Below are positions 4,217 through 23,083 of a DNA stretch of 28,146 nt, in pieces. The translations under genes were made by a program, and so were the position numbers. The DNA is from Stephanodiscus triporus (taxonomy: Eukaryota > Bacillariophyta > Thalassiosirophyceae > Thalassiosirales > Thalassiosiraceae). Below the pieces are notes generated by a model, which was not told the DNA's origin, did no database searches, and saw only the letters and a list, made by a program, of their open reading frames with translations. Location of the stretch: contig JALLAZ010000475.1 of NCBI GenBank assembly GCA_036939755.1, positions 1-28,146 on the forward strand, read 5' to 3'. Numbering within the stretch: the stretch's first letter is position 1; every line of letters starts with the position of its first letter.

Positions 4217-4692
4217 GCGCCCAGAGTATTGATCCGAGTTACAGATTTCTCTTTGTGAATATGGTTTTGTTTGAGGTACACGTATGAAGTCTGTGCCGAC
4301 TTATGCCGGGCGGACTTCATGATGTGGTTGAAATAATGATATGGACAAAAAAGAGAAGTCTGCCTGGTTCGTGATGATTGTGTTCGCAGATGTCAACGAA
4401 TCGTCGAGAATATAAAAAATACTATCGTAGAGTGCTACGACTTTTTCACAGTATGGTAATAATTGACCCCTTATTTCGATAACGCTTTGGGCTAGCGTTC
4501 CTACGTAGACTTTTACTTGGGTATTTCTGTTGTGAAGAGTGCATGCAGTCTTTTATTGTTATCTGCCGCAATACTCTATGACTGTGACATCAAATACGAT
4601 AAGAGCAACTCACCACCATAGTGCACTCAGAACCAGGCCGTGGAACCAGATCGCCCCGCACCACCCCCCAGAGTTCTGCAGTTCTGTCCGCG
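4217..4692. promoter_or_regulatory. Shared divergent promoter interval (DUF6824 gene / SSADH gene)
   Basis: The interval lies between two divergently transcribed genes and must hold both promoters. An 8-bp inverted pair (4284-4291 and 4313-4320) brackets a GC-rich core. An AT-rich run with 'aatataaaaaatac' lies near 4409-4422. No named operator could be identified. Confidence 0.4.
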
Positions 4693-6400
4693 ATGTTGTT
4701 ATCGCCGAGATACTACAAAAGGAGATCAACTACCACCCTGGTCTGCTGCCTCGCGTCGAAAATGACGGACGGCAACAGCGCCGTGACCGCCTTTTCGACG
4801 CTCGCCTCGATGTTGAGCGATCCGTCGCTCCTGGGCGACCACCGCGTTCGCGGCGGCGGCGCGGACGAACGCGACGCGTCGTCCTTCTTCGACGTCGTGG
4901 ATCCCGGGTCGTCCTCGGGACGCGACGTGGTCGGGCGCGTCAGGCGCATGGGGAGGGAGGACGCCAGGCTCGCGATAGATAGGGCGAACGCCGCCCTCGC
5001 CGGCTGGAGGGATGGCACGACCGCATCGCGTCGAGCGGGCCTGCTATCGAGGTGGAGCTCCCTCGTCCAGGAGAATTCCGAGGACATCGCTCGGATAATG
5101 ACGATGGAATCCGGCAAGCCCCTGCACGAGAGCAGGGGGGAGGTCGCGTACGGCGCGAGCTTCCTCGACTACTACGCCGCCGAGGCCGTGCGTGCCAATT
5201 CCGCGGGAGGCGGGACCGTGTGTCCCACCCCCTTCGCCACCGGCGGCGGCGCGCCGCGCGGGAGGATCCTGGCTATGAACGAGGCCGTCGGCGTCTGCGG
5301 AATAATAACGCCGTGGAATTTCCCCATCGCCATGATCACGAGGAAGGCGGGCCCGGCGCTCGCGGCCGGATGCACAATCGTGCTAAAGCCGAGCGAGCTC
5401 ACGCCCCTGACGGCGGTGGCGCTGTCCGTGCTCGCCGAGCGGGCGGGTATACCGGACGGCGTGTTCGAGCTGGTCACCGCCGACGGGGCGTCTACGAGGG
5501 ACGTGGGGGAGGAGATGTGCGAGAATTCCATCGTGAGGAAGATTTCGTTCACTGGTTCCACCCCCGTCGGCAAGCTGTTGATGAGGATGAGCAGCGAGAC
5601 GGTCAAGCGATTGTCGCTCGAGCTCGGCGGCAATGCCGCGTTTATAGGTGAGCCTCTGAGTGCATCGACGTATGTGGCAAATCTAAAAGAAATTCAATTT
5701 GTTGATTGATTGATGCGAATCGCACTCTGAACCCGTAGTTTTCGAGGATGCGGATATCGATCTGGCCGTCGATGGAGCGATGGCGTCGAAGTTCAGGAAT
5801 GCCGGCCAGACGTGCGTCTGCGCGGATCGTTTTGTCGTGCACAAGTCTGTCGAGGAGGAGTTTGTTGTCAAGCTCGCCAATAAAGTGAGCCAATTGAACG
5901 TGGGACACGGGACGAAGGATGGTGTCACGATGGGCCCCGTCATCTCCGCCTCGCAGGTGAAGATTTTGAAGGAGAAGGTGGACGCGGCGATATCGGAGGG
6001 GGCCACGTGCGTCATCGGGGGCTCTCCTCTCGCGGAGCTCGGCCCAAATTTCTTCCCCCCGACTATCCTGATGAACGTGAATCCGTGCTCGTTGATCTGG
6101 CACGCGGAAACGTTCGGTCCGGTCGTGGCTGTCAAAACCTTCGATACGGAAGAAGAGGCGATATCGCTAGCGAATGACACCCGCACCGGGCTAGCGTCGT
6201 ATTTTTTCACCAAGGACATGTCCAGGATATTCAGAGTGTCATCGGCCCTTGAAAACGGAATAGTCGGCGTCAACGAGGGCATAATTAGCAGTGCGTCGGC
6301 TCCATTCGGAGGCGTGAAGGAGAGCGGACTCGGGAGGGAAGGAAGCGCGGCGGGCATCAACGAGTACTTGGAGACGAAATACGTTTTCTTGAATGCATGA
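4693..6400 (+). CDS. Succinate-semialdehyde dehydrogenase (NAD(P)+), two exons
   Basis: Exons are 4693-5647 and 5739-6400; the 91-bp intron runs GTGAGC to CGTAG. The product is 538 residues. It belongs to the aldehyde dehydrogenase superfamily and oxidises succinate semialdehyde to succinate, the last step of GABA breakdown. Visible landmarks are 'TPWNFPIAMITRKAGPALA', 'KPSELTPLTA', 'SFTGSTPVGK', catalytic Glu310 in 'LSLELGGNAAF', catalytic Cys344 in 'FRNAGQTCVC', and the C-terminal 'PFGGVKESGLGREG'. The 34-residue Glu-Cys spacing fits GabD-type enzymes. Cys344-x-Cys346 matches the redox-switch pair known in human SSADH. The first residues (MLLSPRYYKRRS...) are basic and poor in acids, so mitochondrial import is likely. 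I prefer the ATG at 4693; the ATG at 4762 (515 residues) would drop the presequence. An AATAAA lies at 6466-6471. Confidence 0.9.
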
Positions 6401-8693: not shown

Positions 8694-9796
8694 TCAACAA
8701 CAATCATTTCCGCCATTACCATAGTTGTACGACGAGCTCCCCTGCCTGTGCAAATCCACTCTCTCGTGATGTCTATTCGTCGGCGCGAACGACAGCACCG
8801 GCTCCTCCTTCCTATTTTTCTCCGCATGGATCACGGCCAACGTCGCCAACTCCAAAAACGCAGCGTCGACGTTATCCGAGGTTTTGGCCGACGTCTCGAA
8901 GTGCGGGATGGGTCCGCCTATCTGCCCTCCCAGCCCCGCCCTCTCGCACCACTGCTCCGCCCGCTGCCTGGGCACCTGCCTCTCCCCCTCGGGACGATCT
9001 ATCTTATTCCCGAGCAGAACGAACGGGAAATTTGCCCCGTGCGCATCCAGCCCCACCTGCCTCAGAAATTCGCCTCGCCAGTTGTCGAGGTTTTCGAAAC
9101 TGCGTCCGTCCCCCACGTCATACACGAGCGCCACTGTAAGCAGCAACGTGTTAGGTAGTGTACAATTGGAAAATCCCGGGGGATTATATTATTATACGCA
9201 AGCTCAACTCACCGGCATCAGCTCCTCGGTAGAATGCCACGCCGAGGCTTTGGAAACGTTCCTGTCCCGCCGTGTCCCAAATTTGCAGCGTGACGTTGCG
9301 GATGGAACCCGTCTGGGGATCGGTGATGGAGACTTGTTTAGAGAGGAAGTCGGCGCCGATAGTTGCTTTGTATTGGCCCGTGAATTTTTGAGAGTGGTAT
9401 CGGTTCATAAGGGAGGTTTTGCCAACTCTTATTGTGACAATTATTTGTCCCATCATTGATGATTTACGTTTCAGCGTCAAAGAAATGTTAGCGGTAGGTT
9501 GTGCAATAAAATGGGAGAATTGGAAAGGAACGAAGGCAATTGGTGGTACATGTTGAAGTCCGAGCAGGCCCGCGATCGCAAGACGCCGAACTGGTCGAGA
9601 AAAATATTGCAAGTATACGAGGAGTGCCTTACCCTGAGTCGCCCAAGATGACAAGTTTCAGCATATGCTTCTTCGCTGTTGTCGGCGACCGAGCTGCCAC
9701 GGACCTACCGGTGTAAGAATTGGGATTGAAAGAATTGGGATTGTACCCGTACCCACCGCCGGCGCCGACGGTATCATATCGGCCTCCGTTGGACAT
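8694..9796 (-). CDS. Rab7-like small GTPase, three exons
   Basis: Exons are 9796-9633, 9427-9213 and 9133-8694; the introns of 205 bp and 79 bp have GT-AG ends. The product is 272 residues. G-box motifs are complete: P-loop GDSGVGKT (52-59, restored across intron 1), switch-I Thr77 in '[15 protein letters not shown]', WDTAGQE (105-111), NKID (169-172) and 'ETSAK'. The effector region '[15 protein letters not shown]' is typical of Rab7, which directs traffic to late endosomes and vacuoles. The last two residues are Cys-Cys, the double geranylgeranylation site that anchors Rabs to membranes. The start at 9796 follows an in-frame TGA. It adds about 44 residues before the GTPase fold, Gly/Asn-rich with a repeated 'NPNS'; Rab7 normally has fewer than ten there. 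A start at 9664 (Met45) would give the usual length. An insertion with 'GGQIGGPIP' lies just before the G5 box. Confidence 0.88.
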
Positions 9797-10334: not shown

Positions 10335-11651
10335 CTAGGCGGCTGTGGCTGTGGACACGTTGACCTCGTATTCCCTGTCGATAAGATCATCGGTGATAGT
10401 GTTGAATGCGTTGCCCGCGATGTTGACAAAGTCGAACGTGCGTTTCATACTGCGGGACATTCCCTCGGAGAAACACGCTAATTCCTCGCGAATGTATTCT
10501 TTGAACGTCGCCCCGCGCCAACGGCCCATTTTTTGGATTTGAGTGTCGGAGTATCCAGCTAGCGAGAGAGCATTGGCCCCGCCACTCCGAAGGGAGTGTG
10601 TGTCGATGCGGTCGATGGGGATTCCTTTGGCCGTGGGATATTCTAGCACGGTTGCTGCTGCTTTAAGTGCTTTGCTAACATCCTCATTTGTAACATCAGA
10701 CCGTTTGCCGGAGTCACTGTAGTATGCTGAGAGGAATGTTTTGGAATCAGCTCCCCGCTCACGGAGGTGTAGGTAGCGTCGGGCGAGGGCGCGTACCGGA
10801 CAGTGCACGCTGTCGCCGTTGGCTTCGTGATAAACACACACCCCTTTCCAACCGTTTTTCTGATTATCCAGCTTTAATGTTGCGCCGTCGGCCGTCATGA
10901 GTAGAGTGTCTGGGGCATCGCGGGGTAGGCAGCGGAGGTGTCCCCGATGATTTTTCTTGAAGAACGAAACATCCTCGTACTTGAACTGCACGGTTTGCTT
11001 GGTATTATTGCGCGAGCCCTTGACCGTGTATTCCCCGACGCGGAGGAGGTAATAGAAAGCGATCAGAGTCAGGTCTGCCGTGGCTTGCTGACCCTTGTCT
11101 GAACCTTCGTTGCGGTAGGCTGCGTCGACGAGGAGTTCCACAACATCGGCCTGGACAGGCAGCTTCTTTCGTGTGGGTGGGTCGACCTTGCGGTATCCGT
11201 CCAGCATCACCTGGAGGCGCGGGAGAAGGCGGTCGGAGCCGACGGCCTTTATAGGGTTGGCATTACAGGCCAGAGAGACCGTCTGGCCAATGGCCGTAAG
11301 CGCGCTACTGACTGTGCAATTTTTGACTTGTTTTCCTTTACCGTAATATCCTGTGCGGACTCGAGCTGCAAAGCCTGAGAGGAGTCGGATTCGCTTTTGG
11401 AACGGTGCGTCCTGTAGGTAAGGGTCCACTCCCACATGCGCCGTGTACTGTTGCCAATGGCTCCAATACTTTTGCCGGCCGCGGGAAGTCGTCTCCAGTC
11501 GTCCAGCGTAAAAGGCGTCATCCGCAAGACGGAAATCACGCGCATAGCTATCGCGGAGGTGGGCTGGCAGACTGTCCACGAGTTCTGACGCGGCAGAGGG
11601 AAAGTGTCGTTGAAAAAGGTTAGTAAGTCGGCTTCCGTTTTGAAATGCCAT
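10335..11651 (-). CDS. Tyrosine recombinase of the DIRS-like element
   Basis: The product is 438 residues from an ATG at 11651. The catalytic set is visible: Arg204 in 'FYYLLRVGEYT', His352 and Arg355 in 'IDTHSLRSGGANALSLAG', Trp378 in 'MGRWRGATF' (the His/Trp box) and Tyr386 in 'KEYIREEL'. The N-terminal third ('RQKYWSHWQQYTAHVG' and following) fits the helical DNA-binding domain of phage-integrase-type proteins. The enzyme would insert the circular cDNA without making a target-site duplication. Its start lies inside the RT ORF, in a different frame, so it needs its own initiation event or a separate RNA. There is no frameshift or stop. A cellular YR domesticate is unlikely given the adjacent RT. 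Confidence 0.88.
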   Translation of the reverse strand: MAFQNGSRLTNLFQRHFPSAASELVDSLPAHLRDSYARDFRLADDAFYAGRLETTSRGRQKYWSHWQQYTAHVGVDPYLQDAPFQKRIRLLSGFAARVRTGYYGKGKQVKNCTVSSALTAIGQTVSLACNANPIKAVGSDRLLPRLQVMLDGYRKVDPPTRKKLPVQADVVELLVDAAYRNEGSDKGQQATADLTLIAFYYLLRVGEYTVKGSRNNTKQTVQFKYEDVSFFKKNHRGHLRCLPRDAPDTLLMTADGATLKLDNQKNGWKGVCVYHEANGDSVHCPVRALARRYLHLRERGADSKTFLSAYYSDSGKRSDVTNEDVSKALKAAATVLEYPTAKGIPIDRIDTHSLRSGGANALSLAGYSDTQIQKMGRWRGATFKEYIREELACFSEGMSRSMKRTFDFVNIAGNAFNTITDDLIDREYEVNVSTATAA

Positions 11652-14341
11652 TTGGGTTCACTCCCAAACGAACGCGATGGAATATCGGTCATTGCGTTTT
11701 GGTCCCCTGCGATGTGCAGGGTAGCGATCGGACAGACTCTGTGAAGGTTGAATCGAAGTGCGAGGACGCGGAGGAGTTGTTCAGCCACCAGGCTGGAGCG
11801 GCATGCCATGCGATGCACCCAGCTGACAGTGGGGCTGTTATCGCTGAAAAGGGCGATCCGTTTCTCAGCAAGGGGTCCACATACATGTTCCATCATGAGC
11901 CATAGGATTACCAGCCCAGCGAGCTCCAAGTCTGAGTTGGTGATGGTGCCCTTTGGGTTGGCATCCGAGATGACATTGGCCGTGATATCCGGCGGCCACT
12001 GCAAGCGGAACACCGTCGGCGGGCACTCAGAGAGTTCGCCAATTATGATCCCTCCCACCCCGTGACTAGATGCATCGACCACCCCGACATAGTCTGGCCA
12101 ACCCGCGACCAGTTCACGGCAGCGGGTGGGGCGGGTTGTGGATTCCCGGAGGAGCGTACGGCAGTCGGCGATGGCTGATCGGAGGGGTTCGTTGCGATGG
12201 AAGTAAACCACCGGTGGGCGTAGCTTGAGCAATCGATTGCACGGGGACAGTAAACCGCGGCCACCAGGGAGAGCTGTGAAGGCGTGTCGTAGTTTGGCGA
12301 CTACCGATTCGAATTCATTGAACGGGACGCCCCGTTCTCTGCTGGAGGCACGGAGCCATTGATGCAATATTGTGAGGAGCTTAGCGCGTTTCTCTTCCTC
12401 CAGCCAAAGGGTCTTTCGATTGCCGTCGAAGTCGAATCCGAGTAGTGTTTTTAGCATTGAGTATTGGCCTTCTCCTTTAAGAAGCTTCTTTTCGGAGATA
12501 GGGTCATTACCGTCATGCATGTCCGCTGGGAAGACATCGTGGATGCCCGTCATTACTGCCGTCGCGACATGGTCTAGCTGTTCTCGTGATGTTGGGATGA
12601 TCAGACTCATGAAGTCATCGACATACACTTCAATGCAATAGCGGCATGGGCTATCTGTCCGAGCAGACGTCGGGAGGTCGTTGGCGGCAGCATCTCCCCG
12701 TACATGTTTGAGGAACTTATGTTCGGGGAGACTGCCAACCGGGGTGTTGGCATAAGTTTCCGCAATGTCTCGTGCCGTTTCCGTTGCGGCGCAGAAATAT
12801 GGTGGTGACTCCACCCAGCCCATTTGCAAGGACGTTGGCACCACCAGGGTGATGGGTTTACCCTCCTCTTGAGGGAGGACATACGCGAAGTTGTATTCTT
12901 CGCCTTCCGCGCAATCCATGCGCCAAAAGCCGTCTTTAATGTCCCATTTGGCCATAAAGATTTTATCATCGTCGTCGGCCTCGGCGAATGCATGTATGAT
13001 GCGACTCAGAGCATGCCCCAGCTGGTCAAGGGCCCCCTGAGGAGCTAACTTGACTGTATTATCGTTGACGGAAGCAAGGAGACCCCCCGAGCGTAAGCGG
13101 AGGCGGAAGGATAGGTCGAGGATCGACCGGAACGCCTTCGATTTGTGAGGAATTGCCGCGATCGGGGATATTTTGAGCTGGGGAGGGGGGTCGTCTTTGA
13201 TGTCATCCCAGAGCACTAGCTTGGCCTGTCCAACCCTAACCTTTTCCGCACTTTCCTCTGCAAAGTGTGCGATGGCCTCGGGAGAGAGGGACGATTGGTG
13301 TGGTCCTCGTGCAACGGCTTCCCACATTTCGGCTTTCGACCACGGTTTTCCCGTTCTTGTCGGGCATCCCATCTGTGACCACTCTGCGAGCATAGAACCA
13401 GCAGGATGACTGGTGGCAATTCCTGCGGGGCACATTTCGTTACGGTAGCTCTCGGGCCTTGCAGTCGGTGCTGGCAATACCGCTGTCCCTTCATGCGTAG
13501 TCCAGACCGAGGCAGGGACTTGGGCGTCCTGGAGTGCGTGGCGTCGTCGTTTGTTTTGCAAACGAAGCTTTTCGGTATCAGCGCCAGTCACCAGTCCGCC
13601 CGTCGCAAGGAGGGTGTGCGGGCGTAGCCCGTTCACCGTTCCCTGTCCCTCGTTTTTCGGAGCAGATGATTTTATATCACTTGCAATGAGATTCCTTTGC
13701 CGCACCGCCTTCCTTGCCCTTGCGAGTGAGGGCTGGGGGGGGGACACTCCATTGACCGTCGTTTTCTCCGGCATGACCGTCATTTTTTCACCAGAAGGTG
13801 GTACCACACTGGATGGTGTGGGTGTAGTCTCGCTTCGTGGGAGATCAACACTATTTAGTTTTAGTGGTCGGGAAGTCGCGCATGAGGATGCGTGATCCCT
13901 TATGGCCGTCAGGTCCTCCGCATTTTGCCCCACGTTCGATACCAGGCCCGCGCACGTCACCCTCTCTCGCACTTCGTCGTCCGGCCCGCGGTCCTCCTCG
14001 TTGCAGTCGCTATCTATCGAACCAATCTTACCTTGTCCGCCGTCGAGGAGTGGGGGAGGCAGTTCGTCAGCCGCCGCAGGTTGGGCATCAGGGAGGGGTG
14101 CAGCGCCGGCGCCCCATCCCTGAATTGCCTCGCCCAAAGTCGCTGCTGTCCCCTTCTCCAGTTTTCGTGCCAGGTTGCACGCGCTGCGTCCGATGACGGC
14201 CGCTTTTTCGTCGTCCCCGATGCCTGCGGCCTCCGTGACAGGCAGGTCGTCGGGCTTGGTCATAGCCTGACGACCGTTATAATGGCCATCGGGGGTAGCC
14301 CCGATGACTGTGGATGCGCCCACGTTGTGCTCTACCTCCAC
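11249..14341 (-). CDS. Reverse transcriptase / RNase H polyprotein of the DIRS-like element
   Basis: The frame is 1030 codons counted from a GTG at 14341; its first ATG is codon 27. Residues 1 to about 330 are low in recognisable motifs. The RT follows: 'IAAIPHKSKAFRSILDLSF', Asp467 in 'AKWDIKDGFWRM', 'VVPTSLQMGWVESPPYFCAA', and Asp575-Asp576 in 'VEVYVDDFMSL'. RNase H has Asp756 in 'VGVVDASSHGVGG', an 'NSDLELAG' Glu, Asp834 in 'LFSDNSPTVSWVH' and a terminal 'NAMTDIPSRS'. It copies element RNA and removes the template strand. The frame is the same as that of the gag-like ORF, with one UGA and 11 sense codons between that stop and the GTG, so the lack of an early ATG may mean it is made by readthrough rather than its own start. 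The C-terminal 134 residues overlap the recombinase ORF. Confidence 0.88.
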   Translation of the reverse strand: MEVEHNVGASTVIGATPDGHYNGRQAMTKPDDLPVTEAAGIGDDEKAAVIGRSACNLARKLEKGTAATLGEAIQGWGAGAAPLPDAQPAAADELPPPLLDGGQGKIGSIDSDCNEEDRGPDDEVRERVTCAGLVSNVGQNAEDLTAIRDHASSCATSRPLKLNSVDLPRSETTPTPSSVVPPSGEKMTVMPEKTTVNGVSPPQPSLARARKAVRQRNLIASDIKSSAPKNEGQGTVNGLRPHTLLATGGLVTGADTEKLRLQNKRRRHALQDAQVPASVWTTHEGTAVLPAPTARPESYRNEMCPAGIATSHPAGSMLAEWSQMGCPTRTGKPWSKAEMWEAVARGPHQSSLSPEAIAHFAEESAEKVRVGQAKLVLWDDIKDDPPPQLKISPIAAIPHKSKAFRSILDLSFRLRLRSGGLLASVNDNTVKLAPQGALDQLGHALSRIIHAFAEADDDDKIFMAKWDIKDGFWRMDCAEGEEYNFAYVLPQEEGKPITLVVPTSLQMGWVESPPYFCAATETARDIAETYANTPVGSLPEHKFLKHVRGDAAANDLPTSARTDSPCRYCIEVYVDDFMSLIIPTSREQLDHVATAVMTGIHDVFPADMHDGNDPISEKKLLKGEGQYSMLKTLLGFDFDGNRKTLWLEEEKRAKLLTILHQWLRASSRERGVPFNEFESVVAKLRHAFTALPGGRGLLSPCNRLLKLRPPVVYFHRNEPLRSAIADCRTLLRESTTRPTRCRELVAGWPDYVGVVDASSHGVGGIIIGELSECPPTVFRLQWPPDITANVISDANPKGTITNSDLELAGLVILWLMMEHVCGPLAEKRIALFSDNSPTVSWVHRMACRSSLVAEQLLRVLALRFNLHRVCPIATLHIAGDQNAMTDIPSRSFGSEPKWHFKTEADLLTFFNDTFPLPRQNSWTVCQPTSAIAMRVISVLRMTPFTLDDWRRLPAAGKSIGAIGNSTRRMWEWTLTYRTHRSKSESDSSQALQLESAQDITVKENKSKIAQSVARLRPLARRSLWPVMPTL

Positions 14342-14374
14342 TGCGCATCCTTGAGCACCCAGCCCCGACGACAG

Positions 14375-16858
14375 TCAGGGCGAGCCCGCGCCCTCCCCGC
14401 CAGCAGCCTTGCGCTTCTTGCCGGGTGAATCCGGCGACCCGGCTGGCAGGTTGGTGTAGTACAGGACACCTTTGCTGATGCATTCAAGGGTGGCATCGGC
14501 GAATGCGTCCGTTGCGTCACCCGGTTTTAGGTGACCCCGCGAATAACGGCAGCGTTTCCCTTGGTAGCAAGTGCCCAGGGCGCTGTTCCAGCAAATGAAA
14601 GTATCTCCTTTTGCGGATGTGTACTGCGGCAATTTCGGGAGGTCAGCCATTCGTTTTCCCGAGGAGGTCAGGATATCCGCCAGGTTAACATATCCGTTGT
14701 AGCGTTTGAGATATGGATCCATAAGCTGTTTGATTTTTGGGTGACGAACATCGGTCTTTTTGGGGTTGCGTGGGTTATGAAGTTGGGGACCGCCTGGCGT
14801 GCCACCAGGGGGGGGGGCCTCCCAATCGGACGGGGGCGGTCCGGCGGGTGGCTTTAGGTAGGGGTTATCCGCGATCGCCGTCGTCATCCACTCCCGCGGG
14901 AAAGTGGCCCGTTGGACCAGGTTCGCATTGCGAACTGCATCTGTTATAGACTCAAGGTATGAAATAGCCTTGGGCCCACGCGCCCCCGGGGCAAAATCAG
15001 CCGCCACCACTGTCTGGCCAAAGAACGATCGGCCATCGTCCAGGATCGCCCACGTGATGCGAGCGCATACCTCCTTGGTGTAGGCCTCGCGAATAGCGAA
15101 GCATTCCTGGCGATCGAGTACGCGATATAGCTTGAGAAGTTCCTTAAAATAATCGCAGTTGTCGCCAAAAAGCGCCCACAGGAGGCCACAGTAGGTTCCA
15201 ATGTTCAATTTTAGCTCGCTGTATGTGCCTGCCGGGGCGGCCGTCTTCTTGCGTGTGGCCTTCAGCATATCTTCTAGGCTGCGGGTGTTCTTCGTGTGCG
15301 CCGCGGCTTCCTCCCAATCCCTGGACATTTCAGCTTCAACTGCGGACATGGAACGACACGCGAGCATTGACATTCCCCGGGCGGCCGATTGATAGTGCAC
15401 CACTGGTCCCCCCGGGTTGAATCGGAGCGCGACTAATTCTTCGAAAAACTTTGAATCGAAGTGGACGGATTTGTCCAGCTCGATGTGGTTGGCGCGCGCC
15501 CACGTATCCATAGATTTGGAGAGGTGGGCCCTGTAGGTGTCATAACTTCTCCCTTTGCTTGCCTGGATGATGGACCAGATGGCCGGGATGTTGGCTGCGG
15601 TGCGAACCCCACACACATCCTTGAGTTTCGCAATTTGGTCCTGATCAAACCCTTTACCGTTCGCCAATGCCGTGTCGCTGCCGCCCCCAGGTGTCGCCGT
15701 CCCCGCCTGGGAGACAATGTTCTGACTTAATTGCAACATGTTGGCGGCGAACATCTTGGTTAGTGCGATGTATTCGGCCGCGGGAGAGCTCGTCGTAGTT
15801 GCCTGGTGAGAGGAGGTTGTGGCCGCCAGCATCGGCCGGGGACCAAACGAAACGTCGAGTCTTGTCCCCACCCACTTATCAAAATCATCGTCGTCGATGG
15901 TGACTGGGGTTGTTTCCAGGCTTAATTTGCTTTTGGGTGTTTGGCCCGCGCCCGTTTGACTTGCGACCAAACACCACTGGCGGAGCAACTCCCAGTCGCC
16001 TGCGTCGGAGTCTGTGTTGCTGCTGAGGAACGTGTCGATTGTGCCCAGCACCTCATAGGGGGTCGGGGCTGGGCCCTGATTTCGTAACAGGTCGACCAGT
16101 ACAGATGGAATGGCCAGAAGGTATGGGACCGCAATATCCTCCTGGGTGCCGTCCGTCGCTGAGGGGGTCCACAGTGTATCCCCGTTGGCGTCGTTTTCAA
16201 AGAACGCCGCTAACTTGGCGTAGTCCGTGACGGCTTTTCCTGAATGCCAGTCCCAAGCTTTGGTGGTCGGGAGGCACACCGGGGTGGGTTCCTTGGTAAG
16301 GCGACGGTCACCAATAAATGCCAGCACACGGCCTTGATATGTCTTAGTGGATGTTGAGATCGAGTAGTACACACCGGGGGTGTGGAGCATCGTGACGACA
16401 TGTTTGCTCCCCAGCATGGCCAAGTATCCCCGGAATTGTTGGACATTGACAACGAAATCCCTAAACGTCTGACGACTGGCAAGGTCACCGGGGGTGACAT
16501 TTCGTTGGACGGCAAGCTCAGCCTTGAGGGTGTCAGGGTCATACATGGTATGTCCTAATGTTTTGAGGACGGATCCAATGCCCGAATAAGCCTCGGTCGT
16601 CTCAGGTGGTGCCTCCCCCCCCGCCCCCCCCCCGCCCCCCACGGGGGGGGGGGGCGCTGGGGGGAGTAAGAGGCCTCCGGTGGCTTCCCCGGTGCCTGAG
16701 TCCTCCTGAGTGACTGTGGCGTTCCCCGGGACAGGGGGGAGGCGGTCGATGAACTCCGCCTCATCCTCGAACAAGTTGCTCCCGCCTTGCGCAATGGGGG
16801 GCAATTCGTCTCCCCCTGCCCCCCCCGTCCTTCCCAAGAGATTATGCAGAGTTTGCAT
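14375..16858 (-). CDS. Gag-like protein of the DIRS-like element, with C-terminal Cys/His zinc finger
   Basis: The product is 827 residues from an ATG at 16858. Near the end 'CWNSALGTCYQGKRC' followed by 'RYSRGH' gives Cys756, Cys764, Cys770 and His776. The C-x7-C-x5-C spacing is that of CCCH RNA-binding fingers, but the His is two residues later than usual. Such fingers in gag proteins bind element RNA. The N-terminus has a Pro/Gly run (about 65-85) encoded by long C and G homopolymers at 16617-16662, which are prone to slippage. The middle part is helix-rich and unrecognised. The ORF ends in UGA (14375-14377), after which the frame stays open straight into the RT ORF. Position and finger make a structural gag role likely; sequence similarity to retroviral gag is not visible. 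Confidence 0.75.
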   Translation of the reverse strand: MQTLHNLLGRTGGAGGDELPPIAQGGSNLFEDEAEFIDRLPPVPGNATVTQEDSGTGEATGGLLLPPAPPPPVGGGGGAGGEAPPETTEAYSGIGSVLKTLGHTMYDPDTLKAELAVQRNVTPGDLASRQTFRDFVVNVQQFRGYLAMLGSKHVVTMLHTPGVYYSISTSTKTYQGRVLAFIGDRRLTKEPTPVCLPTTKAWDWHSGKAVTDYAKLAAFFENDANGDTLWTPSATDGTQEDIAVPYLLAIPSVLVDLLRNQGPAPTPYEVLGTIDTFLSSNTDSDAGDWELLRQWCLVASQTGAGQTPKSKLSLETTPVTIDDDDFDKWVGTRLDVSFGPRPMLAATTSSHQATTTSSPAAEYIALTKMFAANMLQLSQNIVSQAGTATPGGGSDTALANGKGFDQDQIAKLKDVCGVRTAANIPAIWSIIQASKGRSYDTYRAHLSKSMDTWARANHIELDKSVHFDSKFFEELVALRFNPGGPVVHYQSAARGMSMLACRSMSAVEAEMSRDWEEAAAHTKNTRSLEDMLKATRKKTAAPAGTYSELKLNIGTYCGLLWALFGDNCDYFKELLKLYRVLDRQECFAIREAYTKEVCARITWAILDDGRSFFGQTVVAADFAPGARGPKAISYLESITDAVRNANLVQRATFPREWMTTAIADNPYLKPPAGPPPSDWEAPPPGGTPGGPQLHNPRNPKKTDVRHPKIKQLMDPYLKRYNGYVNLADILTSSGKRMADLPKLPQYTSAKGDTFICWNSALGTCYQGKRCRYSRGHLKPGDATDAFADATLECISKGVLYYTNLPAGSPDSPGKKRKAAGGEGAGSP

Positions 16859-17799: not shown

Positions 17800-18573
17800 A
17801 TGATCATCGGCAGCAGCCTCCTCCTCCGTCGGGGTCTTATCCTCGCTAGTAGTCGGAAGCGTCATCCGGCATTGCGCATCGTCGTCGGTCGCGCCGGCGA
17901 GGGTGGGACCGCCAATATTGACGACGCGGCGAGATCGGCGCCATTTTCCACCACCGCGCTACTGCCGCGTCTGCGTCCGTCCCCCGGCTCGTCGTCGTGG
18001 TCGTCCACGTTGGCGTCGTCGTCGTCGTCGTCGTCGTCGTACGGCATACTCCGCTCGCTGCCGCCCGCGCGCCGCCGCCGCCTCGCCGCGGATCGGACGA
18101 CGCCGCATCTCGCGCCCTCCGCCCCCGTCGCGCTCGCGGACGCCGTCCTCCCGTCGATGTCGATGTCGATGTCGTCGTCCCGCCGAGCGATGACGTCGTC
18201 GACGACGATGCCCCCCTCCCTCCGAGCCGCAATCGCCGCCGACCTGCGATCCGTCGATCGGGACATGGACGGCACGATCGACGCCGAGGAGCTCGGCGAC
18301 CTCCTGCGCAAGCACGCGAGCGCGTTCGACGAGGGGGAGATAGTCGAATTGACCGAGCTGTTCTACGCAAGCACGGGCGGGTCGGGGGTTGGCATCGGCA
18401 AGTTCCTCGAGGCCCTCGACGACGCGACGACGAGGGCCGCCGCCGGCGGAGGGGGCGGGGACGGGGACGAGGTCGACGCGACGATTGCTGGGTGGAATTC
18501 GCTCCTTGGTTCGGATGGGAAATTGAAGACCCATCCCCTCGGGATAGGCACGTGCGCCAGCGAGTACATGTGA

Positions 18574-18608
<35 letters not shown>

Positions 18609-19735
18609 TCTTCTTTTCCTCCGATTATCGTCTATCTCTCATCCATGCGTATTCCCTTTCAAATGGTTATCCTCTCCCGCCCTCCTTATTAAAAAAAAAG
18701 GTTCGCGAAATCCCATGGCAAGTATTCGAAGGAGGATCTCGACATTGAAGTTTCTCACAGGGTGCCGTTGACCCTATCCGACAAGACTGCGTTCTTCGCC
18801 GTGAAGTGCGTGAGGTTGGTATTCGACACCGGTGAGAGCGCGGACCGCCAGTCTTCTCGGGGGGATATCGTCGGGTTTGCTCTGCTGACTAAGCGGGATG
18901 GGTCCGATAGTGCCACTTACCATTTCCTTCCTTTTTACGCCCCCACCCACCCCAACATTATTTAAGCGACACTTTGGAATTTCGGATCGATCACCAAGGA
19001 GAAGATCCTCAACCGTGCCATCTTCCTTGAAACTATTGCCGCGATACCCGGTATGGTCGCCGCCATCATTCGCGTGAGTCGTTCCTCGTTTTGTGTTTGG
19101 TTTTCGCCGCGCGCTGTCTCGTTTACCATCCTTCCTCTTTTTTATGTCCATGCCATCTCCGCGAAAAGCACTTTCGCTCGTTGCGAAATATGTCCCGCGA
19201 CGGCGGCATGCTAAATATGTTCCTCGAGGAGGCCAACAACGAGCGCATGCACCTCCTGACATTCATCCGCATGAAGGAGCCCGGAACGGCATTCCGGGCG
19301 GCGGTAATCGGTGCGCAATTCGGATTCGGCGGATTCTTCCTAACCGCGTACATGATCAATCCCGCTTGGTGTCATCGCTTCGTCGGGTACGTCGAGGAGG
19401 AGGCGTGTCACACCTACACCAGGATACTCCGCGAGATGGAGGATGCGCCGCATGGGAGTGAACTCGCGAGGTGGAAGGACGAGGATGCTCCCAAGATCGC
19501 CAAGGGGTATTGGGCCCTGGGAGAGGACGGCACGATCTACGACGTCATGAAGGCCGTTCGGGCCGACGAGGCCGAGCACAGGGACGTCAACCACGCCGTG
19601 AGCGGCGTGCCGGACAACATGGTCAATCCGCTCTACGATCCGAGGCAGAAAATGGACGTCATGTTGAAGAAGTATGTCGAGGACATGATGGAGAAGGAGG
19701 CTAATAAGGACGCCGAGAGTCGTTTGAGGGCATGA
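17800..19735 (+). CDS. Alternative oxidase with an N-terminal EF-hand, four exons
   Basis: Exons are 17800-18569, 18701-18831, 18967-19073 and 19169-19735; introns are 131, 135 and 95 bp, all GT-AG, and all joins keep frame. The product is 524 residues. AOX passes electrons from ubiquinol to oxygen at the matrix face of the inner mitochondrial membrane, bypassing complexes III and IV. The di-iron ligands are all present: Glu322 in 'AIFLETIAAIPGM', Glu361 and His364 in 'LEEANNERMHLLT', the 'VEEEACHTY' Glu (412-414), and Glu470 and His473 in 'RADEAEHRDVNH'. Residues 153-164 (DRDMDGTIDAEE) form a textbook EF-hand loop, with a degenerate partner near 190-203. Both lie in exon 1, which reads on into the AOX N-terminal region. 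The first 40 residues are basic and hydroxylated, fitting import. A Ser run and an acidic/Gly run come from simple repeats. Intron 1 starts with a GT/GA microsatellite (18570-18608). Confidence 0.9.
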
Positions 19736-20227: not shown

Positions 20228-23083
20228 TCAATCCTGCTCTCCTGTTAGGGACATGGAATTTTCGGATGCCTTAACAGCGCCTTGACTTAGATTGCCAATG
20301 GGTGATTGCCATGCATCGAAGTGATGCGTCGACAAATCCGTGTTGGTGGACTTCAAACGCTGGCGCAATGGACCGGAATCCGTAACCGCGGTGGCGAGGA
20401 CCTTGCTGCAATCATCATCTGTTCTCGGTGAAAGGACGTCCGAGAAGGAGAATGTTGTTTGTATTACCGGCACTTCGTTGTCTTGGACAGCATCCTTCTC
20501 TTCGTCTTCGTGCAGCTTGGGCAGGCAACGTGACAGTTCTTCCGTGGTGGGAAGTTTGGGACCGGTCCCCGAATCCTCTAAGAAGTCATCGAGCTTGCGA
20601 CTCGGCGTTTCGCCAAATGAGAAACTCTCGTTCAACATCTTCGCCTCCCACGATGGCGGCGCCTGCAGGGAATGCTGCACTGAGCCGGCGATGGCAGGAG
20701 TCATAGTCATGCCCTCCTTCATCATGACTGCCTCCATGTAATTGGGCGAGATAAATGGACTGAATGAGGAGAAGGCCGAGCCTGGAGCGTTGAGTACAGA
20801 CGATCTGACTCGCTCTGGCGTAGCGGCGGTATCCATGTGCAAATATTGGCCACCACTACCTGAGGCTGCCGCCTCCTCAGTCATCATCCTTGTGGCTGGC
20901 GAGAAGGGGTTGAAGACGACGGTTTCCAAACTCTCTCGCTGGGTCTTGGATGTGACGGGAGAAGGGCGGAGCTGCGGCCGGAGCAAGACCTTCTTCAAAG
21001 AACTGCCTGTAGAAGAAAGGCTGCCAATTGTGGAGGTTGCGATGTCATCAAATCCGAGACGAAATGGCGTCGCCGGTGGTTCCTTCCTTGCACTAAATAC
21101 GACGCTGCTGCTCATGGCACTGGAGGGCTCCTTAGGCGGCGGGGCCTTGTAGTCTTCGAGCAACTCGAGCACATTCTCCTTGTAGAAGCCTGGTAGCCTC
21201 GAGCGCTCGTTGTCGGAAAGATTCAGATCATTTAACGACTTGATCGGGCTCGAGCCGAAGTATTTAGCTGCACTCTCGGCCATCTTCCGACGCTCGACAG
21301 CGGATCGGTAAATGCCGTTCACGTAGCCACCCCGCAATGTCCGGCAAAATTCCAGTAATTCCTGCTGATCCTCGGCCGAGGCTTCGGGCAGGTCTTTCTC
21401 GGTGCTTCTTTTTGGTGCACTGCCGACGATAGTCCCCTTTCCGGTAGTTTTGCCCATCGGCGCCACGGCGGGCGAGAAAAGAGATTTCAAATGATCGGAC
21501 TTCCTCTTCTTTTTTGACGAGCATCCAGCGTCGCTCGGCGAGGTTACATTCCCCCGCGCACCCACCTTGATGTTGAGAGGGGTTGGGTTGATGCCGCTCC
21601 TGCCACTCGAGCCGATGTGACTTGCGGGCGCATGCCTAGCTGCTCTAAGGCACCCCTCAATGTCGTTCCCGATCAAGTATCGATCCTCCTTGTCCCTGAG
21701 CCTGTGCACACCGTCGATGTTCTTGCTGTACAGGTATTTTTCAACCTTGCGCTTCATACTGGAATTCCAGTGATTCTTGATGGCGTTGTCGGTTCGGCCG
21801 GGAAGGCGCTTGGCGATGTCAGCCCAGCGGTTTCCCGTGCCGTCCTGCTGGGATTGGAGGATAATGCGGTCCTCTTCCTCGGACCATGGGGCCTTGGAGA
21901 TTTGCGGGTTGAGGTGATTGTGCCATCGCTCTCGACATTGCTTGCCAATCCGCCCTATGAAGGCAGATGTTTGTGTGGGGAAAGTGGGATGGGCAGTATT
22001 ATTGTGTGATGTTAGCAACTCCAAAGCAGTGCCCACGTGAAAAACTTATTCATTCAAGGTAAGGGCAAGAAAACTCACCTGGCAGTTCGCTCGCGATCTG
22101 GCTCCATTTCTTGGGACCATGGGTTTGGACCAACTCCATGACCTTCCTGTCCTCCTCGTCTGTCCACGGCCCCTTCGACGCGCCCGCCTTCTCCGCCCCG
22201 CCCTTGGCGGCGCCACGTAGCTTGGTATAACGCCTCATGCACTCGGCGGGTTTGCGAGTGTAGGCGTTGGGGTTCGACTTGGGATGCTCGACCTTGTTCG
22301 CGTGGAGTTTGTCGGAGACCGTCGTCCAGTGTATGTCTCGGATTTGTTCCGGTAAGATTTGTGGCATGCATGCGATTTTGGGATGCAAGAATTGAACTAT
22401 TTCGCGAAGTTGTTCGTCCTGTGAATTTTTCGCGTGAGAGGGGGAAGAGAGAGAAGAATGCGTTCGTGTTGAGTTAAGCCCTAACTTGTGCGGGATGGCA
22501 GCAATAAAATTCTCGTTCTCACCTCGTTCTCGGTCCACCGAGGAGGACGACTCGACAACGACGGGGGCGACTTCAAACTTCCCTCTTTAATACTCGATGG
22601 CGACGACGACGGCGGCGGCTGCTTCTTTCCCGACGTCGGCACCGCGTTCGACTTCCGGTGCGATGCCGGTGATGTGATCATGATGGGAGGGATCATACCC
22701 CGCTGTCCTCCGTGTCGCGTGACCATGGATTGATGTTGTTGAATTATTTCCAATTGCGGGGGATGGTGGTGAGGAGGCAGCGGCGGCGGCATGGGATAGT
22801 GATGACGTCCATGAATGCCCGGCGGAGGCGCGAAAACGCCGTGCGGCGCTTGGTGCTGCGTGACCATTCGCGCCATGGGAGGGCCTCTGCCGGCCGCCAT
22901 CCCCGGAATGCGAGGATTAATTCCAAGCGCGGCCGGCGTGGAAGGCTGATGGGCCGCGGACATGGATGCTGCCGACGCTCGCTGAGGAGGGGGGGGCTGC
23001 GTTCCTCTTCTGGCAGTTGCCTCGCCTGATGAGTTGAATAGGTGGAGCGGCCTGTCACCGCCACCCGCTGGCTCTCCGCTCAT
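20228..23083 (-). CDS. Three-repeat MYB transcription factor (MYB3R/c-Myb type), three exons
   Basis: Exons are 23083-22523, 22418-22079 and 21954-20228; introns are 104 and 124 bp, GT-AG. The product is 875 residues. R2 spans about 269-315 ('[20 protein letters not shown]', then '[12 protein letters not shown]') and R3 about 316-362 ('[17 protein letters not shown]', then '[19 protein letters not shown]'); both keep the three Trp-type positions that contact DNA. Introns fall inside R1 and R2. R1 is divergent: '[19 protein letters not shown]' opens it and '[15 protein letters not shown]' closes it, with an enlarged middle. In plants and animals such proteins bind AACNG sites and control cell-cycle genes; the diatom target is unknown. 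The N-terminal 180 residues are Pro/His-rich and disordered, and the long C-terminus is Ser/Thr-rich with several Ser/Thr-Pro sites. An in-frame stop precedes the chosen ATG. Confidence 0.88.

Follow-up and report, generated by a model that had tools for sequence, protein, structure and literature searches.

A four-exon alternative oxidase gene with an EF-hand pair

The analyzed window, a 28,146-nucleotide stretch of contig JALLAZ010000475.1 (assembly GCA_036939755.1, forward strand) from the thalassiosiroid diatom Stephanodiscus triporus, contains a gene at 17800-19735 (+) whose 524-residue predicted product carries an EF-hand pair ahead of an alternative oxidase (AOX) region. The gene comprises four exons with GT..AG introns and in-phase joins, and its features are as follows.

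17800-18569, + strand: exon 1, encoding an N-terminal targeting/low-complexity region, the EF-hand pair and the beginning of the AOX lead-in (open frame and phase; layout common to homologues)
18211-18444, + strand: EF-hand pair domain, residues about 138-215 (AlphaFold2 (AF2) model; calmodulin, CaBP1 and centrin fold matches)
18256-18291, + strand: predicted canonical Ca2+-binding loop DRDMDGTIDAEE, residues 153-164 (108 of 128 homologues retain the five scored positions)
18367-18402, + strand: second EF loop, degenerate and lacking Ca2+ ligands, at about residues 190-201 (sequence and alignment)
18570-18700, + strand: intron 1 (GT..AG; ten MMETSP-labelled homologues align across the join with no gap)
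18701-18831, + strand: exon 2, with the start of the Pfam AOX match (residue 271)
18832-18966, + strand: intron 2 (GT..AG; ten MMETSP-labelled homologues align across the join with no gap)
18967-19073, + strand: exon 3, carrying the first di-iron glutamate, E322, in FLET
19074-19168, + strand: intron 3 (GT..AG; ten MMETSP-labelled homologues align across the join with no gap)
19169-19735, + strand: exon 4, carrying the di-iron ligands E361, H364, E412, E470 and H473, and the stop codon

The AOX core is recognized by the Pfam profile PF01786 across residues 271-480, at 268.3 bits against a cut-off of 22.7 (E 6.5e-80). All six di-iron ligands, described as kept in an earlier, sequence-only reading of this DNA, are indeed present (E322, E361, H364, E412, E470 and H473). 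These residues are the ligands in AOX structures and belong to the AOX motifs LET, NERMH, LEEEA and RADE-x-x-H. Among 155 aligned homologues the six residues are unsubstituted wherever the homologue has a residue at all (155/155, 153/153, 153/153, 152/152, 148/148 and 149/149, respectively; the rest are gaps). In the model of homologue P0005, the EF-hand pair is followed by a flexible linker and by a core that resembles trypanosome AOX and has the AOX fold. Mitochondrial AOX proteins from Trypanosoma brucei and plants (PF01786) share the di-iron core, the ligand residues and the fold with the window protein. The T. brucei structures (3VV9/3W54) cover the core region only, matching P0005 at positions 235-451 and not in its EF-hand part.

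Both loops of the EF-hand pair were found where the sequence-only reading had placed or described them. The canonical loop lies exactly at residues 153-164, where DRDMDGTIDAEE presents ligands at positions 1, 3, 5 and 12 and glycine at position 6 of a 12-residue EF loop. In shuffles of the protein, the strict pattern arose in 26 of 200,000 and a relaxed pattern in 408 of 200,000. A chance motif was rejected on these low counts, with loop conservation as the deciding evidence. Because Foldseek E-values for the EF part of the full model were weak, the EF segment was modeled alone. The AF2 model of 18202-18453 has a pLDDT (predicted local distance difference test score) of 89.6 and two helix-loop-helix units in a paired EF fold. 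Fold matches listed for the segment (Foldseek, VIA) are mostly calmodulin, CaBP, centrin and troponin C; the Foldseek E-values are weak (best 0.019, none <0.001), with probabilities up to 1.00. The second loop lacks Ca2+ ligands in the window protein and in most homologues, and has its own conserved pattern: F/Y-Y followed by a glycine-rich stretch and a hydrophobic residue (18361-18402 in the window, and homologues). Y189 is kept in 127 of 128 homologues and F or Y at position 188 in all 128. On sequence grounds, this conservation suggests that the second loop engages a ligand or partner that is not Ca2+.

The EF-hand had been described as sharing an exon with the start of the AOX region. This stands for the family-conserved AOX lead-in HPLGIGTCASEYM, which is encoded in exon 1, but not for the Pfam AOX match, which begins in exon 2 since exon 1 ends within residue 257. 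A TCG/CGT repeat in exon 1, at about 18010-18040, encodes a serine run of the N-terminal stretch, and the G+C content of exon 1 is 69%, compared with 52-59% in the remaining exons.

The AOX lead-in also contains C252 (18553-18555), a cysteine in 141 of the 155 homologues, which sits in roughly the region of the plant AOX regulatory cysteine. In plants, an N-terminal cysteine and keto acids tune AOX, and by analogy redox control via C252 may operate alongside any calcium control.

The genome's second AOX-family gene (L002, G000:C217) lies on another contig and appears by eye to be PTOX-like, with an ASAFV presequence and no EF-hand. By eye, no ASAF-like motif, the mark of a diatom plastid presequence, was seen in the window protein. 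A PTOX identity for the window gene was rejected on that basis, together with the location of the PTOX-like gene on another contig.

The EF-hand AOX family in diatoms

A first protein search with residues 135-524 returned 662 proteins at E<=1e-5. The 155 homologues consist of the best 120 of these together with 35 new proteins from a second search; P0157, an AOX without an EF-hand, was kept apart. Most of the public proteins used are metagenomic clusters, for which the designation as diatom rests on rank and named members. Named organisms among the matches listed in the first search are all diatoms. They include Thalassiosira profunda, T. sp. AJA248-18, T. punctigera and T. minuscula (both by taxid), Skeletonema menzelii, Cyclotella cryptica, Stephanocyclus meneghinianus, Discostella pseudostelligera, Odontella aurita, Pseudictyota dubia, Chaetoceros sp. 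GSL56, Pseudo-nitzschia heimii, Stauroneis constricta, Fistulifera solaris and Craspedostauros australis. The second search added Attheya septentrionalis and Bacillariaceae genomes, and its named rows are also diatoms. The order EF-hand then AOX occurs in both centric and pennate species; as judged from these sequences, the architecture is widespread in diatoms and not peculiar to this alga. It is also already visible in databases, where P0027, P0071 and P0089 are named 'EF-hand domain-containing protein' in UniProt. The family also takes in diatom entries from Cyclotella cryptica, Fistulifera solaris, Craspedostauros australis and other species that are annotated as hypothetical or EF-hand domain-containing; they share its architecture, with no essential difference.

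A regular expression for the loop matches 73 of the best 120 of 662 proteins, and in the alignment many of the non-matches prove to be cut short within or ahead of the loop, or to have one position changed. We set aside the 27 of 155 homologues truncated or gapped at the loop and scored five loop-1 positions (D1, D/N/S3, D/N/S5, G6 and E/D12) in the other 128. All five are kept in 108 of these; the counts for single positions are 124 for D1, 119 for G6 and 126 for E/D12, while positions 2 and 4 vary. Far from being lost in all close homologues, the EF-hand is thus a persistent part of the family, and the fusion proposed from the sequence is real. Conservation of the metal positions across diatoms supports the predicted calcium-binding role of loop 1. 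In this respect the earlier calcium reading is supported; its framing as a property of this alga is not, given that the architecture occurs in centric and pennate diatoms.

Four homologues (P0042, P0047, P0050 and P0062) keep two or fewer of the five positions, and their sequence ahead of mid-loop is unrelated, as though it came from an intron or a different start; P0042 carries a transcript label. In P0042, P0047, P0049, P0050, P0062 and others, homology resumes directly after the loop glycine, which would fit an intron at that point; the window gene has no intron at mid-loop. A phylogeny was computed on the AOX core, EF-hand excluded, for 147 sequences, comprising the window protein, those 140 homologues (of 155) with >=340 aa and six outgroups. 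The window gene clusters with Discostella pseudostelligera and P0011 (support 0.953). Loss of a loop-1 ligand is, from alignment and tree, uncommon and partly lineage-specific.

Beyond diatoms, a third search used P0157, an animal-like AOX, as query. Named members among the 120 matches listed of its 7646 are animals for the most part, the remainder being two alveolate algae, a chytrid and a synthetic construct; a relaxed EF loop occurs in 0 of these 120 (query included), and all list PF01786 only. A scan of bacterial genomes gave one bacterial AOX (L004), with an open frame of 287 residues that lacks an EF loop, and a scan of viral contigs found no relative. The negative applies to the proteins compared, which did not extend to plants, most fungi or further stramenopiles such as brown algae, pelagophytes and oomycetes, so a restriction of the architecture to diatoms does not follow. 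No description of an EF-hand AOX surfaced among the titles and passages of open PubMed Central covered by our searches, which did not include a central diatom AOX study (Murik et al. 2019).

Proposed calcium control and its alternatives

Taking sequence, models and analogy together, we consider it somewhat better than an even bet (probability of about 0.55) that the gene encodes a mitochondrial AOX whose EF-hand pair places it under direct calcium tuning. The protein would be imported into mitochondria, where AOX is located at the matrix side of the inner membrane, and the EF pair would be retained there on the mature protein. Binding of Ca2+ at loop 1 would reshape the EF pair, which would then dock on or release the AOX N-terminal arm or dimer surface and thereby alter the rate of ubiquinol oxidation. 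The mode would resemble that of the EF-hands of NDB-type NADH dehydrogenases, with stress or high-light calcium signals tuning electron overflow. Ca2+ might either activate or inhibit the enzyme.

NDB-type type II NAD(P)H dehydrogenases are mitochondrial respiratory-bypass enzymes with a built-in EF-hand. They share with the window protein the combination of bypass enzyme and EF-hand but belong to another enzyme family, and as a rule they face the intermembrane side, whereas AOX faces the matrix. Dependence of the plant external NADPH pathway on Ca2+ is described in PMC4587368. Diatom KEA3 and DSP are likewise energy-conversion proteins with an added EF-hand pair, although they are plastid proteins of another family and carry their EF-hands C-terminally. 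For KEA3, an antiporter, the EF-hands are required in vivo, according to PMC11663583.

Several observations weigh against direct calcium tuning. Only one of the two loops is canonical, and the EF-hand matches of the window protein, around residues 148-181, fall under the Pfam curated cut-offs; the best, to EF-hand_5 (E 1.6e-4), reaches 21.4 bits against 25.9. The EF-hand case therefore also rests on conservation and structure models. EF-hand_5 matches 67 of 77 chosen family members at E<=0.01, and precomputed EF-hand domains are present on several homologues. The linker has low model confidence, and so the P0005 model leaves the EF pair unplaced on AOX. One of the five loop-1 positions is altered in 16 of the 128 scored homologues. 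Eight of these, with glycine at ligand 3 and including those of Odontella aurita and Pseudictyota dubia, form one clade on the core tree (support 0.986). In the set of 15 MMETSP-labelled rows, one position is altered in each of P0039 and P0135, and the first half of loop 1 is missing from P0042. Published reports add to this: the mitochondrial uniporter MCU is reported missing from all diatom species surveyed (PMC11085791), and AOX protein went undetected in a T. pseudonana proteomic study (PMC5599023). The reported lack of MCU complicates a reading based on matrix calcium, as it puts the amount and route of matrix Ca2+ entry in question. Our MCU search of this genome gave no match, with the control genomes silent too and the search hence uninformative by itself; a LETM1-type match is present in the genome.

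The same domain could be a structural EF pair, with a constitutive Ca2+/Mg2+-bound or metal-free fold serving stability, dimer assembly or partner binding and no signaling. The degenerate second loop is strongly conserved in its own way, at the aromatic positions 188 and 189 above all, which suggests a scaffold or partner surface, and the clade of eight has lost ligand 3 yet retains the domain. Against this, retention of the loop-1 Ca2+ ligands in most scored homologues, with positions 2 and 4 varying freely, is the pattern of selection on metal binding. We regard a purely structural role as less likely than not, though the most serious of the competing explanations. Considerably less probable is an action of the EF-hand ahead of or apart from the mature enzyme, whether it is cut off with the presequence, serves in targeting, or belongs to a protein of another compartment. 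The EF-hand is N-terminal, with about 135 residues ahead of it in the window protein and about 100 low-confidence residues in the P0005 model, but a presequence of >200 residues would be unusual and the EF domain folds confidently in both the P0005 and the window segment models. The ASAF-like motif of the PTOX-like gene also has no counterpart seen by eye in the window protein.

Separate EF-hand and AOX genes might instead lie side by side here or have been mis-joined in the gene model. We consider the probability of such an artefact to be almost negligible. A single uninterrupted exon holds both the EF loop and the AOX lead-in, and the window protein aligns ungapped at all three exon joins to 10 of the 10 MMETSP-labelled homologues compared. 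The same chain is found in transcript-derived and genome-derived homologues. A mis-joined model was ruled out as far as homologues allow, since those of many named diatoms, some of them transcript-derived, show the same order.

Neighboring genes and meaning for diatom respiration

Adjoining the AOX gene is a Myb-type transcription factor gene at 20228-22036 (-) (Myb_DNA-binding, 7.8e-16). Upstream, 10335-16858 (-) holds three long open reading frames, one with a YVDD motif like that of reverse transcriptases and one with an HSLR motif like that of tyrosine recombinases. The frames resemble a DIRS-type retroelement, although Pfam gave no match on them. By eye, an apparent succinate-semialdehyde/aldehyde dehydrogenase gene of at least two exons lies at 4621-6400 (+), and an apparent Rab-type small GTPase gene of more than one exon at 8694-9654 (-).

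Known control of AOX acts through redox state, metabolites and expression. In diatoms, AOX is associated with removal of excess reducing power and tied to photosynthesis and the stress response (PMC7596299, citing Bailleul 2015 and Murik 2019). If functional, a Ca2+ site that is part of the enzyme itself and retained across diatoms would connect calcium signaling to respiration at the post-translational level. More tentatively, and with the balance of probability still against it, diatoms as a group might hold AOX under direct, fast calcium control, such that calcium, acting also on the EF-hand antiporter KEA3 in the plastid, would govern the plastid-mitochondrion energy exchange from either side. 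If so, the reported lack of MCU would imply a different route for matrix calcium, and calcium would bear on the exchange on which diatom photosynthesis depends.
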